Shown: positions 6,246 through 13,228 of the stretch, in pieces
Layout: every line of letters starts with the position of its first letter
Position numbering within the stretch: position 1 is the stretch's first letter
Source: Desulfovibrio sp. An276
Lineage (GTDB): Bacteria > Desulfobacterota > Desulfovibrionia > Desulfovibrionales > Desulfovibrionaceae
Assembly: GCF_002159665.1 (NCBI RefSeq)
Contig: NZ_NFJC01000001.1
Coordinates: 248,001 to 312,000 of the forward strand
DNA: 64,000 nucleotides
Direction of reading: 5' to 3'
The notes under the pieces: model-generated
What the model was told of the DNA's origin: nothing
What the model saw: the letters and a program-made list of their open reading frames with translations, nothing else
The model's database searches: none
Position numbers and translations under genes: made by a program

Positions 6246-6286
6246 CAAAAAAAGAGAGTATGCCCGATGCTTGCGCCATCAGGCAT
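6246..6286 (-). terminator. Probable terminator overlapping the SEC-C gene stop codon
   Basis: On the minus strand ATGCCTGATG-gcgcaag-CATCGGGCAT forms a 10-bp stem overlapping the stop codon of the SEC-C gene. It is followed after six bases by a run of seven T. It would end the SEC-C transcript before pgi. Confidence 0.6.
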
Positions 6287-6818
6287 TCTTGCCACAGCAC
6301 TTCTTGTATTTCTTGCCGCTGCCACAGGGGCAGGGATCGTTTCTCCCCACCTTCGGGGCCTCGCGGCGAACAGGCTCACGGACAAGGGGTACGCCACCGG
6401 TGTAGTAGAGCTTGTCCTCGACAGTCTTGAAGTAGGCGTGCTCGCCTATCTCCCTGGCTACTCCGTCCACAACGTAGGCTGCCATGTAGTCTACGTAGTC
6501 ACAGCCCTCTTCCTCGTCCCTGCCGCTCTGAAGAATGCTAAGACCGAGCCAGTCAATGCCTTCACTGCGCTCTTTCAGCATCTCGGCAGTTACAGGCTCC
6601 TCGTCCTCGCTCTGCCAGGCGGTCTTTTCCAGATAGTCCCAGGCGCCCACTGCATAGGCGCAGTAGCGGGTCCGAAGCATGGTAAGCGTATCCTGGGGCC
6701 AGCATTTTTCCTCGTGGTACGGGGCACAGCACTCCTCGTAACTCTTGCCACTGCCGCAGGGGCAGGCAGCAGTATTTTCCAGTTCCGGTGTGCTTTCGAT
6801 TCTTTCTGTATCAGGCAT
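6279..6818 (-). CDS. YchJ-like SEC-C motif protein, single module
   Basis: Small (179 residues) cysteine-rich protein with an N-terminal [17 protein letters not shown] motif starting near residue 18, a YchJ/UPF0225-type body ([21 protein letters not shown], a late YYTGG strand), and a C-terminal SEC-C zinc-binding motif [20 protein letters not shown] motifs bind zinc and in SecA mediate SecB and ribosome contact; the role of YchJ-type proteins is unknown. The ATG at 6818 was chosen; the frame stays open to a TTG at 6899, and no strong ribosome site decides between them. It lies directly downstream of the six-module paralogue and shares its 3' DNA almost exactly. Confidence 0.85.
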
Positions 6819-6905: not shown

Positions 6906-9815
6906 TTACACATTCTTGCCGCAGCATTTCTTGTATTTCTTGCCGCTGCCACAGGGGCAGGGATCGTTTCTTCCCACCTTGGGGGCACGACGGACAGGCC
7001 TTGCGCTCAAGGGAACACCTCCAAGATAGATCAGTTTTCCCTCAAAGCTTACGAACAAGGCCCTCTCGAGAATCCTGTGCTCCTGAACGTCGTACTTTTC
7101 ATCGTACTCGTCATCGTCAGCACCATCTTCATCGTACGGCTGCCATTCGTACACGGCAGTACAGTCGAGTTGATAGTCCACATACTCCATGTGCTCCAGA
7201 CCCAGGTCCAGGGCAGCCAGATCCAGCTGACTGTCCCCAAGGTCTTCTCTGCCCCTCCCCAAGATAACCATTTGCTTCACATGGATATCTGTATAATCTG
7301 TGCTGAACTCTTGCAGGATATCCCTCAGATTGGGGTTGCGCCTGTCGTCCTCGTCAAAGTCGAGCATCTCTGGCTCCAATTGAGGAAAATCAGGCAATAC
7401 TGCCATGGCAAAGGCACAACATCTTGCCCGTACAAAGCTGACGGCATCCTCTGGCTCTTCTGCTCCGGTAATGTACCTTGCGCAGCATTCTCCGTATGTC
7501 TGTCCGCTTCCGCAGGGACAGGGGAATGCAAAATCTCCGGCTTCGGCAGCTTCCTCCCAGGTCAGCTCGCGCATGCCCGTATAGAAAAACCTGCCGTCTT
7601 CTGTTTCGTAATAATAGCGTGCAACATGTGGATATGTCGCCTCGCAGTCCAGCCAGCAAACTGTGCCATCAATGTAGTTGCGCCCCTGCTCGTCTGTACC
7701 CTGCGAGTACTGTTTGAGATCACTCAAAATCAGCCCCATACGATAGAGCATGATCAGCATATCGCAAGACAGGGGGTCTTCCCCATATTTGAGACGGGAT
7801 GTCCTTTCAAGATAGTCTCGTCTGCCAAGCTTCATGGCGCTTATACGTGTGCGCATAAAGGTCAGTGCATCTTCAGGCAGACGGGAACCATCGTGATACG
7901 GTGCGCAACACTCCTGATAGTACCTCCAGTCATCGTCAAAGTACCTGCCCGTTTTGCAGGGGCAGAGTATATCGCGTCCTTCGGATAGTATGTCTTCTGA
8001 TTCTGAGCCGGTATAGTAGATTTTGCCGTCAACACGCCTGTAGTAGCAGCGCGTCTCCAATTGAATGTCCCCGTCCAGCATCTCTCCAAAGTACAGATTT
8101 TCCAGATATTCTTCGCCGTCCTTCTCCCCGCGCTCAAGGGAATCCATTGATCCCCACGCAATGTCGCAAGCATCCGCAAGAGCATTCAGCTCTTCCGGTC
8201 TAAAGAAGATTCTCCCCTCCCTGGGCAGGGCTGTGCGCTCAAGATACTCCCAGTTGTTGCAGGCAAGGGCACAGAAACGGGTGCGCGCCATGGTTTTGGC
8301 GTCTTCTGGCCACAGTTTCCCTTCAAGATACGGGGCGCAGCACTTTTCGTACGGCTCCATACTGCTACAGGGGCAGGGATACCCCCTTTGGGCAATCCTG
8401 TATTCGCTCCTTGGTGTTGCAGAAGAGTCTACATAGTAGAGTTTCCCATCTATGCGCTCACAGAGGGATCGCTCCACCCATTGCCCAGCCTTCACGTCCT
8501 CGGACCTTACGGCCAGAGCCTTCCAGTCTGCAAATTCCCTTCCTTCGCTGTCCACCCCCTTGTTATACAGGATAAAAGTGAAGAAATGCATTTGCGGATC
8601 GTCAAGATATTGCTGAAGATATTGCGTGGAAAAATGTTCTTCCTCGGGAGTGTACAGCCTGGCAGTCTTGTCCAGATACTCCCTGTCACGATGTACACAG
8701 GCAGTGTAGCGCGTACGAACCATGGTCTCCACATCTTCAGGCCAATTCTTGCCTTCAAGATACGGACCACAGCATTCGTCATACTTTTTGCCACTGCTGC
8801 AGGGACAAGCGTCGGGATCCGGCTTTTCAAAGGGCGTATGGGAAGTCTTCAGGGCATCAGCATCACCCCCGGTATCATCCAGATACTCGGAGTCAATGAG
8901 GTCCTTCCCCGTAGTGTAGTACACTTTCCCGTCTATGGTAGCAAAATAGTCCCTCTGCTCAACTCTCCTCTCCCCCTCATCCGGCTCTTCTGTCTTGTAT
9001 TCGTACTCCACAAACTCGTAGCCGTCATCATCTCTGCCGCCATCCAGTATACGCAGTCCACTCCAGGTGCATCCGCTTGCCGATGCCTCCTGCAGGTCTG
9101 CAAGCGAGTACGTTGTCTCGCCGGGGTTCTCGTCAAGGTGTTCCGTAGTATTCAGAAAATCCCAGTCTTGCAGACGATATGCAGCAAAGCGCGCACGCAC
9201 CAGGGTTTTGGCGTCCCTGGGCCAGCGCAGGCCATCAAGATATGGACCGCAGCATTTGCCATACTTTTTGCCACTGCCACAGGGACACTTGTCGTCATCA
9301 GCAGGGCGCAAGAAATCTGACTCTGACCTTGGGGCCTCACGCTCGATAAAGTCTGTCCCTGTAGTATAGTATATTTTCCCGTCTATCGTGGTCAAATAGT
9401 CCTTTTGTTCCCAGTATTCCACACCGGTCTTGGGATCCATGAGCGTATATTCGTAGCGCACATACTCATACGCACTGTCCTTGTCCCTGCCACTCTCGAG
9501 TATGCGCAAGGAACTCCAGGTCCTTCCTTCCTCCCTGGCTTCCTTTTCCATATCCTCGCATGCATAGGTATTCTCGCCCGGGACCTCGTCGTAGTACTCT
9601 GTTCCCTTGAGAAAATCCCAGTTCTGCAGGCAATAGGCCGAAAAACGGGCACGAACCAGAGTCTCGGCATCCTCTGGCCAATACATGAGCCCATGGTAGG
9701 GTCCACAGCACTCCTTGTAGCTCTTGCCACTGCCGCAGGGACACAGGTCATCCCTTTGCCTTTTGCCAGCCTGTTGTGCTGCCCCTGTCCTGCTTTTGCC
9801 ATTCCTTGCACTCAT
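6906..9815 (-). CDS. Tandem six-module YchJ/SEC-C repeat protein
   Basis: A 969-residue protein made of six degenerate copies of a roughly 150-residue YchJ-type unit plus a terminal SEC-C motif. Zinc-type motifs start near residues 25 ([13 protein letters not shown]), 177 ([13 protein letters not shown]), 337 ([13 protein letters not shown]), 481 ([13 protein letters not shown]), 618 (CPC and ECC with a six-residue insertion between them), 766 ([13 protein letters not shown]) and 953 ([13 protein letters not shown]). Each unit continues with a WPEDA-T-RTR-like helix and ends in a DGKIYYTTG-type strand. There is no signal peptide or membrane segment and the protein is acidic. The start at 9815 is supported by AAGGAG; the upstream open frame is not needed. 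Single-module YchJ proteins are common, but I know of no described six-fold array. Function unknown. Confidence 0.9.
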
Positions 9816-9926
9816 GGATGTTGCTCCTTGGCCCAATTCTGTGTTCGGCCTTTTTCGCATCCTCAAAAAACATATACCTTGCGTTCCTGACAGCAAAGCC
9901 CTGTGGCCGTACGCATGGATCCGGAA

Positions 9927-10964
9927 CTATTGCCCGTTCCTGGTATGCCGATTATCAGTGTCCCGGCTTCCTTCTTCCTGTTTGCAGCAGCCCTTTTTGT
10001 CATGCATGCCCTGCATGCCCCTTTCAATGAGAGGAGAAAAGACTCCCCTGCGCATGGGAGTTCCCACAAAATCCTCCCTTTCCCAGAAGGCTATAAAAGA
10101 TCCGGAAGAGGGAAGCCCGTGGTCCGCAGGAATAAAGAGACAGCTGGCAATACCGTTCTTTTCCTCGTCGTAGATAACCTTGCCAAGACGATTCATGTCC
10201 CTGTCGTAGGCCACAAAGCTCTTGCCCGTAACCTCGCGCTTTCCCTGTACTGCATAGACACGCATAAAATTGCCTTCTGGCTGGACGCGCACTATCTCGG
10301 CAAGGCCAAGATCCCGCAAAAGGGCGTTTTGTCTTCTGCCCAAAAAGAAGCTGGATATGCCCGTACCTATGCCAAAAACACCAAATATGGCTGCCAGGTA
10401 GAAGGGATTGAAACCTGTGTAGCGCCTAACCATGGAAAGCGAGGCCCGATCCTGCTCCCGCGCGCTTGCAGCCACACTGATGGTATAGGTCTGGAAGGAA
10501 GAGGATGGCTGCCCCTCGATGCCCACAGCCAGGGCATAGGTTCCACTGGGTGCTGTTTCACTCACATGCACAAGGCCGCGCCACATGCCTGTTCCGAACC
10601 AGTAGCTTGTGAAAAAGCCCTGAAACTCGAAGGAAAGAGGGGCGTCGGCCGGAATCGGGAAGGCGCGCATCTCGCTTGCAAGCGCAGGCCCGCTGCCCAT
10701 GGGGCCGGAAACTGCCTCGCTTGTGCCAGGCAGCATTTCCAGTCTGTAGGATCCGCCCCCGCGCATGCGCGACAAGAGACCGTCTGCCAGAACCACAAAG
10801 GCCAGAATAAGGAGCACCGCGGCAAAAACGCCCGCAAGGCGCTGCCTGTTGCGTGCGCCGGAGTAAAGCAGCCATTCCGGGCTTTCGGCCAGCGGGATAC
10901 TGTCCCTGACCATCTGTTCCTCGTGGGCGTCACTCGGGGGTGTTTGAGGGGTCTGTGCTTGCAT
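9927..10964 (-). CDS. Conserved two-helix membrane protein, last gene of the TauE-type operon
   Basis: A 345-residue protein of unknown function. After a polar N-terminus (MQAQTPQTPPSD) there is a transmembrane segment near residues 45-62 (LAGVFAAVLLILAFVVLADG), an extracytoplasmic domain of about 140 residues, a second segment near 210-232 (FYLAAIFGVFGIGTG) and a cytoplasmic tail. The ATG at 10964 was chosen because the sequence upstream overlaps a terminator and lacks coding character. It is downstream of a small membrane protein, a lipoprotein and a TauE/SafE exporter on the same strand, so it may be an accessory of that transport unit, but an internal terminator at 11063-11096 could uncouple it. 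Confidence 0.75.
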   Translation of the reverse strand: MQAQTPQTPPSDAHEEQMVRDSIPLAESPEWLLYSGARNRQRLAGVFAAVLLILAFVVLADGLLSRMRGGGSYRLEMLPGTSEAVSGPMGSGPALASEMRAFPIPADAPLSFEFQGFFTSYWFGTGMWRGLVHVSETAPSGTYALAVGIEGQPSSSFQTYTISVAASAREQDRASLSMVRRYTGFNPFYLAAIFGVFGIGTGISSFFLGRRQNALLRDLGLAEIVRVQPEGNFMRVYAVQGKREVTGKSFVAYDRDMNRLGKVIYDEEKNGIASCLFIPADHGLPSSGSFIAFWEREDFVGTPMRRGVFSPLIERGMQGMHDKKGCCKQEEGSRDTDNRHTRNGQ

Positions 10965-11575: not shown

Positions 11576-12157
11576 CTACTTCTTGAAGATGTTCGTCTTA
11601 GACACGTTCATGAAGCGCAGGGCCTGATGCTTGGCATTTTCCTTGTAGTAAATGCGGCATTCGTCGCCGGCTTCCCAAGTGCTGGGGGGCAGCTCAAGGT
11701 ATTCTGCGGGCACCTTGAAGGTGACGATTTCATGCAGGCGCTTGGAGTATTCGGTGATGGTGCCGTTGTCCTTGTCGATGACAGGGAACTTGTGGCCGGC
11801 AACCTTGGGGTTGGAGGGCAGGATGTTCTTCTGGATGTCGGTGAACTCGACCTTGACGGTCTCAAGCTTGCCATCCCTGAAGATGATCACTTCGCTCTTC
11901 TCGGTGTTGATCTGCACGCGTCCGCCGGGAACGGGCTCGGGGCCGATTTCAGCAGGATCTGCGGGCATGGTGTAGGTCATCACACCACCGGTGTAGGAAG
12001 GATTCTGCACATCGTGATTGACGTCCAGGACCATGGTAAAGGTCTGTTTGCTGGCGTCGTAGGCCACACAGCGCCCCTGTTCAACCTGTCCGAACTCGCA
12101 TGCAGCCAGGCCGAGGCAGAGGACGAACAAAGCCAATATCTTGTAATACGTTCTCAT
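11576..12157 (-). CDS. DUF4881-like lipoprotein
   Basis: A 193-residue exported lipoprotein. A type II signal peptide ends in the lipobox LGLAAC, so Cys20 would be lipidated. The rest is a soluble beta-rich domain with no catalytic motif I recognise. The composition resembles the Desulfovibrio family annotated as DUF4881; that is recollection, not a search. An AGGAGG lies six bases before the ATG at 12157, and the TauE/SafE exporter stop is only about 10 bases upstream. This points to tight co-translation and perhaps a periplasmic accessory role to the exporter. Confidence 0.8.
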   Translation of the reverse strand: MRTYYKILALFVLCLGLAACEFGQVEQGRCVAYDASKQTFTMVLDVNHDVQNPSYTGGVMTYTMPADPAEIGPEPVPGGRVQINTEKSEVIIFRDGKLETVKVEFTDIQKNILPSNPKVAGHKFPVIDKDNGTITEYSKRLHEIVTFKVPAEYLELPPSTWEAGDECRIYYKENAKHQALRFMNVSKTNIFKK

Positions 12158-12166
12158 GATGTCCTC

Positions 12167-13228
12167 CTAGTTCTGCGCAGCGCGTCTCTTTTCCGCGAGT
12201 TCCTGCTTGGCACCCTGGACCATCTTGGCGGCGATGTAGATGGAGATACCGGACACGAAGCCGAGCACCACCACAGTGGACACGCCGTTGATGAAGCCAG
12301 CGTAGGCGGGGAAGTAGGGCTGTATCAGCTTGAGGACAACGGAGCACAGGCAGCCGAGGACGGCCAGGCCGAAGGCTGTGCGGATGCCGTAGCCCTTGAT
12401 GTACTTTGTGGCAACTGCGCCAATCTGGGCGCCAACGGCAGCACCGATGAGCATGATAAGAGCGGCAACCAGTTCGGTACGCCCCTTCAGGGTGTAGGTG
12501 GCAGCGCCGTACAGGCCGGAGATGGCAACTTCAAAGAGGTCGGTGCCGACTGCGATGTGGGTCGGGCAGCCAACGAGGTACACCAGGGCGGGCATACGGA
12601 TGAGGCCGCCGCCGATGCCGAGGATACCGGCGAGAACGCCAGTGAGGAAGGACACGCAGATGGGGAGCCATGCGGAGCAGTAGATGCCGGCCTGATGGAA
12701 GTGGACCATCGGGGGGATCTTGATGGCGTGGAGCTTGGTAGCCCAGTCAAGGCCGGTGGCCTTTTCGTCAAGGACTTCGCCCTTGGCAGCGGCTTCGCGT
12801 TCCTTCTTCTTGCGCAGGGCCACGTCATGGAAGACCATCCAGGCCATGAGGATGAGCAGGACAACGTAGAGCCAGCGGACAACCTGATCGACGCTGCCGA
12901 GGCGTTCGAGCTGCATGACTATCTGGGCGCCGATTTCCACGCCCACCACGGTACCGACAAGCATTGTCAGACCGAGCTTGTAGTCAACGTTGCCGAAGCG
13001 GCCGTGACGCATGGTGGAAATAAGGGATTTACCAGCCATGTGAGCCACGTCGGTACCAATGGCGAAGGCCATCGGGAAACCAAGGATGTTCAGGCCGGGG
13101 GTAACCATCCAGGCGCCGCCCATGCCGAAGAAGCCGCCGATGATGCCGACACCAAGACCCAGGATGATGAGGCCGGGCCAGAAAACGGTGCAGCCGGAAA
13201 TGGGCATCAAAACATACAACCAGTCCAT
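12167..13228 (-). CDS. TauE/SafE-family anion exporter
   Basis: Integral membrane protein of 353 residues with about eight or nine hydrophobic helices and glycine-rich repeats typical of the family (GLGVGIIGGFFGMGGAW in the N-terminal half, GVLAGILGIGGGLIRMPAL in the C-terminal half). TauE/SafE members move sulfite, sulfoacetate and related organosulfur anions across the inner membrane. A cytoplasmic insert rich in Lys and Glu lies near residues 130-150. It sits between a small membrane protein (13240-13554) and a lipoprotein. The unit is divergent from a membrane-anchored AAA+ regulator and preceded by a sigma54-type promoter, so inducible export of a sulfur anion is a reasonable inference. 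Confidence 0.9.
   Translation of the reverse strand: MDWLYVLMPISGCTVFWPGLIILGLGVGIIGGFFGMGGAWMVTPGLNILGFPMAFAIGTDVAHMAGKSLISTMRHGRFGNVDYKLGLTMLVGTVVGVEIGAQIVMQLERLGSVDQVVRWLYVVLLILMAWMVFHDVALRKKKEREAAAKGEVLDEKATGLDWATKLHAIKIPPMVHFHQAGIYCSAWLPICVSFLTGVLAGILGIGGGLIRMPALVYLVGCPTHIAVGTDLFEVAISGLYGAATYTLKGRTELVAALIMLIGAAVGAQIGAVATKYIKGYGIRTAFGLAVLGCLCSVVLKLIQPYFPAYAGFINGVSTVVVLGFVSGISIYIAAKMVQGAKQELAEKRRAAQN

Follow-up and report, generated by a model that had tools for sequence, protein, structure and literature searches.

A YchJ protein of six tandem units with a single SecA-type tail in Desulfovibrio sp. An276

The array gene and its locus

The window analyzed herein is a 64,000-nucleotide stretch of the genome of Desulfovibrio sp. 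An276 (contig NZ_NFJC01000001.1, positions 248,001 to 312,000). An open reading frame on its minus strand, with the ATG at 9815 and the stop codon at 6906–6908, encodes a protein of 969 residues comprising six YchJ-like units, each with a SEC-C motif and an NTF2-like domain, followed by one extra SEC-C motif at the C-terminus (Table 1). YchJ is present in many bacteria and is still barely understood. The original prediction, made from the sequence alone, had located this gene correctly, and its seven CPC..CC motifs were reproduced exactly, starting at residues 25, 177, 337, 481, 618, 766, and 953. The spacing of the inner motifs was 137–160 residues, with 187 residues before the last motif. 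All six units carried the N-terminal SEC-C cysteines in the pattern CxC-x8-CC, which became x14 in unit 5 of the window array through a six-residue insertion. The GSG core was altered in three units, reading SSG in unit 3, SSM in unit 4, and KTG in unit 5. It had been claimed that units 4 and 5 had lost the GSG core or gained a six-residue insertion while keeping all cysteines; the insertion in unit 5 and the retention of every motif cysteine held up, but the change in unit 3 had been overlooked.

The array protein was strongly acidic, with a net charge of -70 (-32 for the orthologue in G096, a genome of a second species). The GC3 of the array gene was 0.589 (0.57 in G096) versus about 0.69–0.71 in the neighboring genes, and this low value may reflect low expression. 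TRF detected no tandem repeat at the DNA level over the array, because the units are too diverged. The scan for promoter-like sites gave results not far from chance, and these sites were left out of account.

Directly downstream of the array, the single ychJ followed on the same strand, and after it came pgi, a histidine kinase gene, and a sigma-54 response regulator gene. The spacing from the N- to the C-terminal motif was 144 residues in the single YchJ of the window, and this gene was retained beside the array in both the window genome and G096. In the whole genome, the YchJ_M-like domain was found only in the array and the single ychJ, whereas SecA was the one further protein with a SEC-C motif. 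The single ychJ evolves fast in the clade, with 55% identity between the window and the relative G101, while pgi was 90% identical. Directly upstream of the array, the gene at 9927–10961 (minus strand) had no Pfam match and evolves fast, being 59% identical in G096, where the three genes beyond it were 95–99% identical. A TauE/SafE exporter and a DUF4881 lipoprotein, also upstream (11576–13228, minus strand), were 99% and 95% identical in G096, respectively.

Table 1. Features of the array gene and the adjacent ychJ, in window positions
Feature	Position	Strand	Basis
Terminator-like hairpin after ychJ	6260..6286	-	Consensus match; scan as a whole near chance
Ordinary single-unit ychJ, 179 aa, likely parent gene	6279..6818	-	ORF, Pfam, locus comparison, tree
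Array gene, six YchJ-like units and C-terminal SEC-C, 969 aa	6906..9815	-	ORF, Pfam, motifs, profile, AlphaFold2
SecA-type SEC-C tail, residues 948-969, C-terminal	6909..6974	-	SEC-C search, tail comparison with SecA
Unit 6, residues 761-947, 13-residue motif and NTF2-like, longest unit	6975..7535	-	Motifs, profile, predicted fold; without Pfam NTF2 match
Unit 5, residues 613-760, CPC..CC with six-residue insertion and NTF2-like	7536..7979	-	Motifs, profile, fold; Pfam silent
Unit 4, residues 476-612, 13-residue motif and NTF2-like	7980..8390	-	Motifs, profile, fold match; Pfam under cut-off
Unit 3, residues 332-475, 13-residue motif and NTF2-like	8391..8822	-	Motifs, Pfam
Unit 2, residues 172-331, 13-residue motif and NTF2-like	8823..9302	-	Motifs, Pfam
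Unit 1, residues 20-171, 13-residue motif and NTF2-like	9303..9758	-	Motifs, Pfam, fold match
Likely ribosome-binding site, AAGGAG, in front of the array ATG	9824..9829	-	Read from sequence

Identity of the units and of the C-terminal tail

A Pfam search of the whole chain returned YchJ_M-like and SEC-C. When the units were scanned one by one, YchJ_M-like scored over the cut-off in units 1–3 of the window array and fell short in unit 4 (20.2 versus 22.7 bits). In the G096 array, units 1, 2, and 4 were over the cut-off and unit 3 was just short, and no YchJ_M-like match was found in units 5 and 6 of either array. SEC-C passed the cut-off in units 1, 2, 3, and 6 of the window array, stayed under it in unit 4, and was silent in unit 5. 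We further built a profile from 33 single-unit YchJ sequences, array sequences not included; the single gene of G034 lay outside the extraction rule and was left out of both the tree and the profile (33 of 34 used). With this profile, all 12 units of the two arrays scored 49.5–114 bits, and after removal of the zinc motif, which leaves the NTF2 part, they scored 24.9–74.5 bits, compared with 10.1 bits for the best of 2800 shuffled sequences. Units 2–6, whose failure to align with YchJ would have refuted the original prediction, all aligned with the profile within the range for whole units. Eight alignment columns were invariant over 38 sequences.

In an AlphaFold2 model of the whole chain, the pattern of helices followed by four strands recurred six times (mean pLDDT 72), which agrees with the six repeated folds that had been foreseen; the pTM of 0.43 gives no arrangement of the units relative to each other. 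Residues 476–607 of the model (unit 4) matched the YchJ structure 9vxg with a Z score of 17.9 (rmsd 2.5, 128 aligned residues), and residues 23–158 (unit 1) matched 2jq5 with a Z score of 16.2 (rmsd 2.6, 126 aligned). Unit 5, the most degenerate one, was folded separately from a 38-row alignment (pLDDT 87, pTM 0.82) and matched 9vxg with a Z score of 15.2 (rmsd 3.1, 127 aligned), while units 2, 3, and 6 were judged in the whole-chain model only. Since the alignments used for fold prediction contain YchJ sequences and so favor YchJ-like models, these folds are support rather than proof.

The units share the SEC-C and NTF2-like layout of the YchJ family (UPF0225; PF17775 and PF02810; 9vxg, 2jq5, and 2i9w), and their fold agrees with it where tested. 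The N-terminal SEC-C and the NTF2-like middle domain of the family were present in all six units, while its C-terminal SecA-like SEC-C occurred once per chain, after unit 6, and the inner units had none of their own. The relatives that we read carry one NTF2-like domain flanked on both sides by a SEC-C, whereas the array departs from this single-unit architecture with six domains and seven motifs in one chain of 969 residues. It is practically certain that the protein is a single chain of six diverged YchJ units closed by one SecA-type SEC-C. The architecture is new within a known family, and the array is a derived YchJ variant, not an ordinary member.

At the level of the whole chain, a Foldseek search with the array model matched the iota-carbonic anhydrase structures 7c5x and 7c5y (E 6e-6 to 2.5e-5), which we take to contain NTF2-like repeats in tandem. 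The identity was about 10% and the rmsd 27–29, and we do not propose that the arrays share an ancestor. To our knowledge, iota-carbonic anhydrase is devoid of SEC-C motifs.

The end of the array differed from the rest. A 20-residue segment of its tail was almost identical to an 18-residue segment of the tail of SecA (identified by Pfam) from the same genome. In the single ychJ genes, the C-terminal tail had a mean pairwise identity of 98% over 22 genes and the N-terminal motif 71% over 25; this comparison covered 25 of 31 single genes, 22 of which fitted the strict tail rule, and two of the three exceptions (L006 and L043) had I for V. The array keeps exactly one such tail. The basic SecA type is represented by the final SEC-C alone; the six motifs before it belong to the variable N-terminal type of YchJ. 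Thus, the seven like zinc motifs originally described are all present, but six of them are better regarded as module caps and the seventh as a docking tail. Although its last 20 or so residues are nearly the same as the C-terminal metal-binding domain of SecA, the array has no SecA motor, and the tail sits on YchJ units. In the window, the last 75 nt of the array and the single gene were alike at 69 of 75 positions, and the preceding 60 nt at 18 of 60. Strong constraint on the tail, or exchange there, would produce such a contrast.

Distribution, selection, and origin

To see how rare the array is, we surveyed the domain in the genus, the order, and the phylum. These surveys overlap in the genus and count matches at E 0.001 or better, so that an array with one recognizable unit passes as a single gene. 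In the genus, 56 of 79 genomes had the domain; 54 had one match, and the two with four matches were the window genome and G096, the only array carriers among the 79 members. The domain was found in 221 of the 317 genomes drawn from the order, and the array only in the window genome (G096 was not drawn). The two matches seen in G166 and in G143 were fragments of one domain, and G261 had two separate single genes on different contigs. For the phylum, 52 of 296 drawn genomes had the domain, with more than one match in the window genome only.

A gapped DNA pattern for tandem YchJ gave five matches in genome_contigs (described as covering 84,980 species), all of them single YchJ genes followed by chance bases past the stop codon, and none in viral_contigs. 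The pattern finds two of the five junctions of the window array and none in the G096 array, indicating that it misses old, diverged arrays; on 29 single genes, the first anchor was found in 25, the second in 28, and the spacing in 28. The window's own record may be absent from genome_contigs, and a search of this collection with the whole array protein found no relative. Literature searches gave no publication on a multi-unit YchJ array protein, in accordance with the earlier statement that no described protein like it was known. The array is genuine, rare, and, within what could be searched, undescribed.

The original prediction had suggested looking for the same array in related genomes, and an orthologous one was present in G096. 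It is 943 residues long, has the same six units, and occupies the equivalent locus, where the single gene again follows. The two arrays were 60% identical overall, and the single genes 79%. Equal units 1 to 6 were 63%, 52%, 64%, 61%, 67%, and 52% identical between the two species, and different units 24–57%; within the window array, units 1 and 2 shared 57% identity, more than unit 2 shares with its G096 orthologue (52%). The orthology of equal units indicates that all six units were already in place when the two species separated. In G096, GSG was kept in units 3 and 4, and unit 5 had no insertion (x8), indicating that those two GSG changes and the unit 5 insertion arose recently in one lineage. 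The motif cysteines, which are the predicted ligands of the zinc sites, were conserved between the arrays at 28 of 28 positions, and the other cysteines at 11 of 15.

Between the window and G096, the array had a dN/dS of 0.36, compared with 0.23 in the single gene and 0.076 in pgi, which indicates a looser constraint on the array than on the single gene. For units 1–6, the values were 0.29–0.56 with bootstrap intervals below 1 (the bootstrap covers these six units), and the tail had 0.05 on 22 codons. Both frames were open at a dS of about 0.8. The protein alignment of the arrays contained 14 indel events, in frame by construction, and the DNA alignment was used instead; 10 of its 12 gaps had lengths divisible by three, and the remaining pair, of 17 and 1, sum to 18. 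Both arrays are under purifying selection.

We then compared the locus in 12 stretches fetched from relatives. In the nearer relatives, the gene order was g13240, TauE exporter, DUF4881 lipoprotein, small gene, g9927, the array where present, ychJ, pgi, kinase, and regulator, as judged as far as each contig reaches. The order was less complete elsewhere: g9927 was unmatched in L046, L047, L049, L050, and L051, and in L049 pgi did not have the kinase and regulator as neighbors. No array was found at the locus in 11 of the 12 stretches, all but G096, and every match to the array in them was a single ychJ. In G101, with the pgi identity given above, about 0.36 kb lay between the flanking matches, without an array.

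A tree of 47 sequences, for which the tool warns of long branches, gave a group with 94/94 support, just under the star, that held all 12 units together with three single genes, namely the two local ones and that of G101; the surrounding 19-row group was starred (96/96). Each unit paired with its own orthologue (bootstrap 94–100), and units 1 and 2 were sisters (99/97). Unit 6 grouped with the local single genes on long branches, so that the 12 units did not form one clade in the best tree and did so in 4% of the bootstrap trees. As the 11 other relatives have a single ychJ only, local tandem amplification is the most likely origin, and the array very probably arose in this way from the neighboring ychJ in a recent common ancestor. 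We strongly infer that its units diverged fast before the two species split. The duplication may have proceeded in one round or in several.

The breakpoints likely lie in the SEC-C motifs, where recombination may have joined the like N- and C-terminal motifs of neighboring ychJ copies, because each inner SEC-C replaces the C-terminal motif of one unit and the N-terminal motif of the next, and the inner motifs stand at the position of the C-terminal motif of the single YchJ. An origin from a phage or a plasmid was also considered and rejected. Phages gave no match. Matches occurred in 35 plasmid records, none covering 80% of the query; the eight listed covered 30–37%, about 460–615 bases each, which is one YchJ in size.

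Possible function of the array

The original prediction had proposed a multivalent zinc scaffold or a platform that binds ribosomes or chaperones, as SEC-C can contact SecB or ribosomes. In E. coli, the C-terminal tail of SecA binds ribosomes near uL23 and is required for SecB binding, and many species that lack SecB retain this tail (PMC6620043). The requirement for SecB binding is what would favor a chaperone platform that binds SecB. However, no SecB (PF02556) match was found in the window genome, which is 99.99% complete in 98 contigs, or in 18 other genus members (0 of 19 in all), while 3 of 12 genomes from other families of the order had one. The SecB platform is thus largely refuted and barely credible, and the ribosome is the better-supported partner of the tail. 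A ribosome platform with many sites is a weak reading as well, since just one SEC-C, the last, has the basic SecA character and a chain as acidic as this one and its orthologue is unlike a multi-site ribosome binder.

The reading that we tentatively prefer as a whole, at somewhat less than an even chance, is that the array is a multivalent YchJ. Its single conserved tail would dock where the SecA tail docks, most likely at the ribosome exit region because no SecB was found. The six non-identical zinc/NTF2 modules would then form a row of different client-binding or thiol-sensing surfaces, and may provide avidity or a wider specificity than the one-module YchJ beside the array. As judged from its motifs, a multivalent zinc protein is plausible, and the tail-docked mechanism is possible though doubtful. 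The most specific version, a young, locally born, ribosome-docked zinc-thiol chaperone or sensor in which a SecA-mimicking tail delivers six separately specialized, individually metal-gated modules, would be a long shot.

The same cysteines may serve a different purpose. If the CxC-x8-CC sites are oxidizable and lose their metal, the array could be a multi-zinc thiol switch, an amplified redox-sensing YchJ that senses or buffers oxidative stress in an anaerobe. The titles of PDB entries released in 2025 name YchJ a ROS-sensing transcription factor (9vxg, from Salmonella, and 9l6b), all 28 motif cysteines were kept while 40% of the residues changed, and the genome has a dsrA over the model's cut-off and so presumably belongs to an anaerobic sulfite or sulfate reducer. 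However, the ROS-sensing role is taken from these entry titles, and structural zinc alone would also preserve the cysteines. RpoS, the target named for Salmonella, had no match over the rpoS model's cut-off in the genome, the matches under it probably being other sigma factors, although the array may have a target other than RpoS; the strongly acidic chain is unlike a DNA binder. We regard the thiol switch as unlikely. Alternatively, YchJ units, if they normally pair, may have been joined in one chain as a fixed oligomer or an assembly partner of the single YchJ. Structural neighbors other than YchJ include oligomeric hubs of the NTF2-like kind, CaMKII being one, the tandem NTF2-like chains of iota-carbonic anhydrase offer a parallel, and the single gene was kept next to the array in both species, but the low pTM of the whole-chain model gives this fused oligomer no unit arrangement to stand on, and we consider it fairly improbable, though, like the thiol switch, still in contention. 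The looser constraint on the array, the lineage-specific GSG change in units 3–5, and the loss of the NTF2 domain of units 5 and 6 by Pfam would fit a functionless array, be it a duplicate that is decaying or selfish or an error of assembly. Yet the array is present in two assemblies of different species, its frames have stayed open at this dS, dN/dS is below 1 in units 1–6, and the motif cysteines are intact; absence of function is mostly refuted and very improbable.

Whether or not the multivalent, tail-docked reading is right, the six-module form stands beside a retained single-module neighbor, is young, and occurs in two species, which makes it a ready comparison for YchJ. Residues conserved throughout the twelve diverging units indicate what a module requires, and the retention of just one SecA-type tail sets docking apart from the modules. 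The locus also captures how a large repeat protein came into being through duplication at a known site that is empty in relatives.
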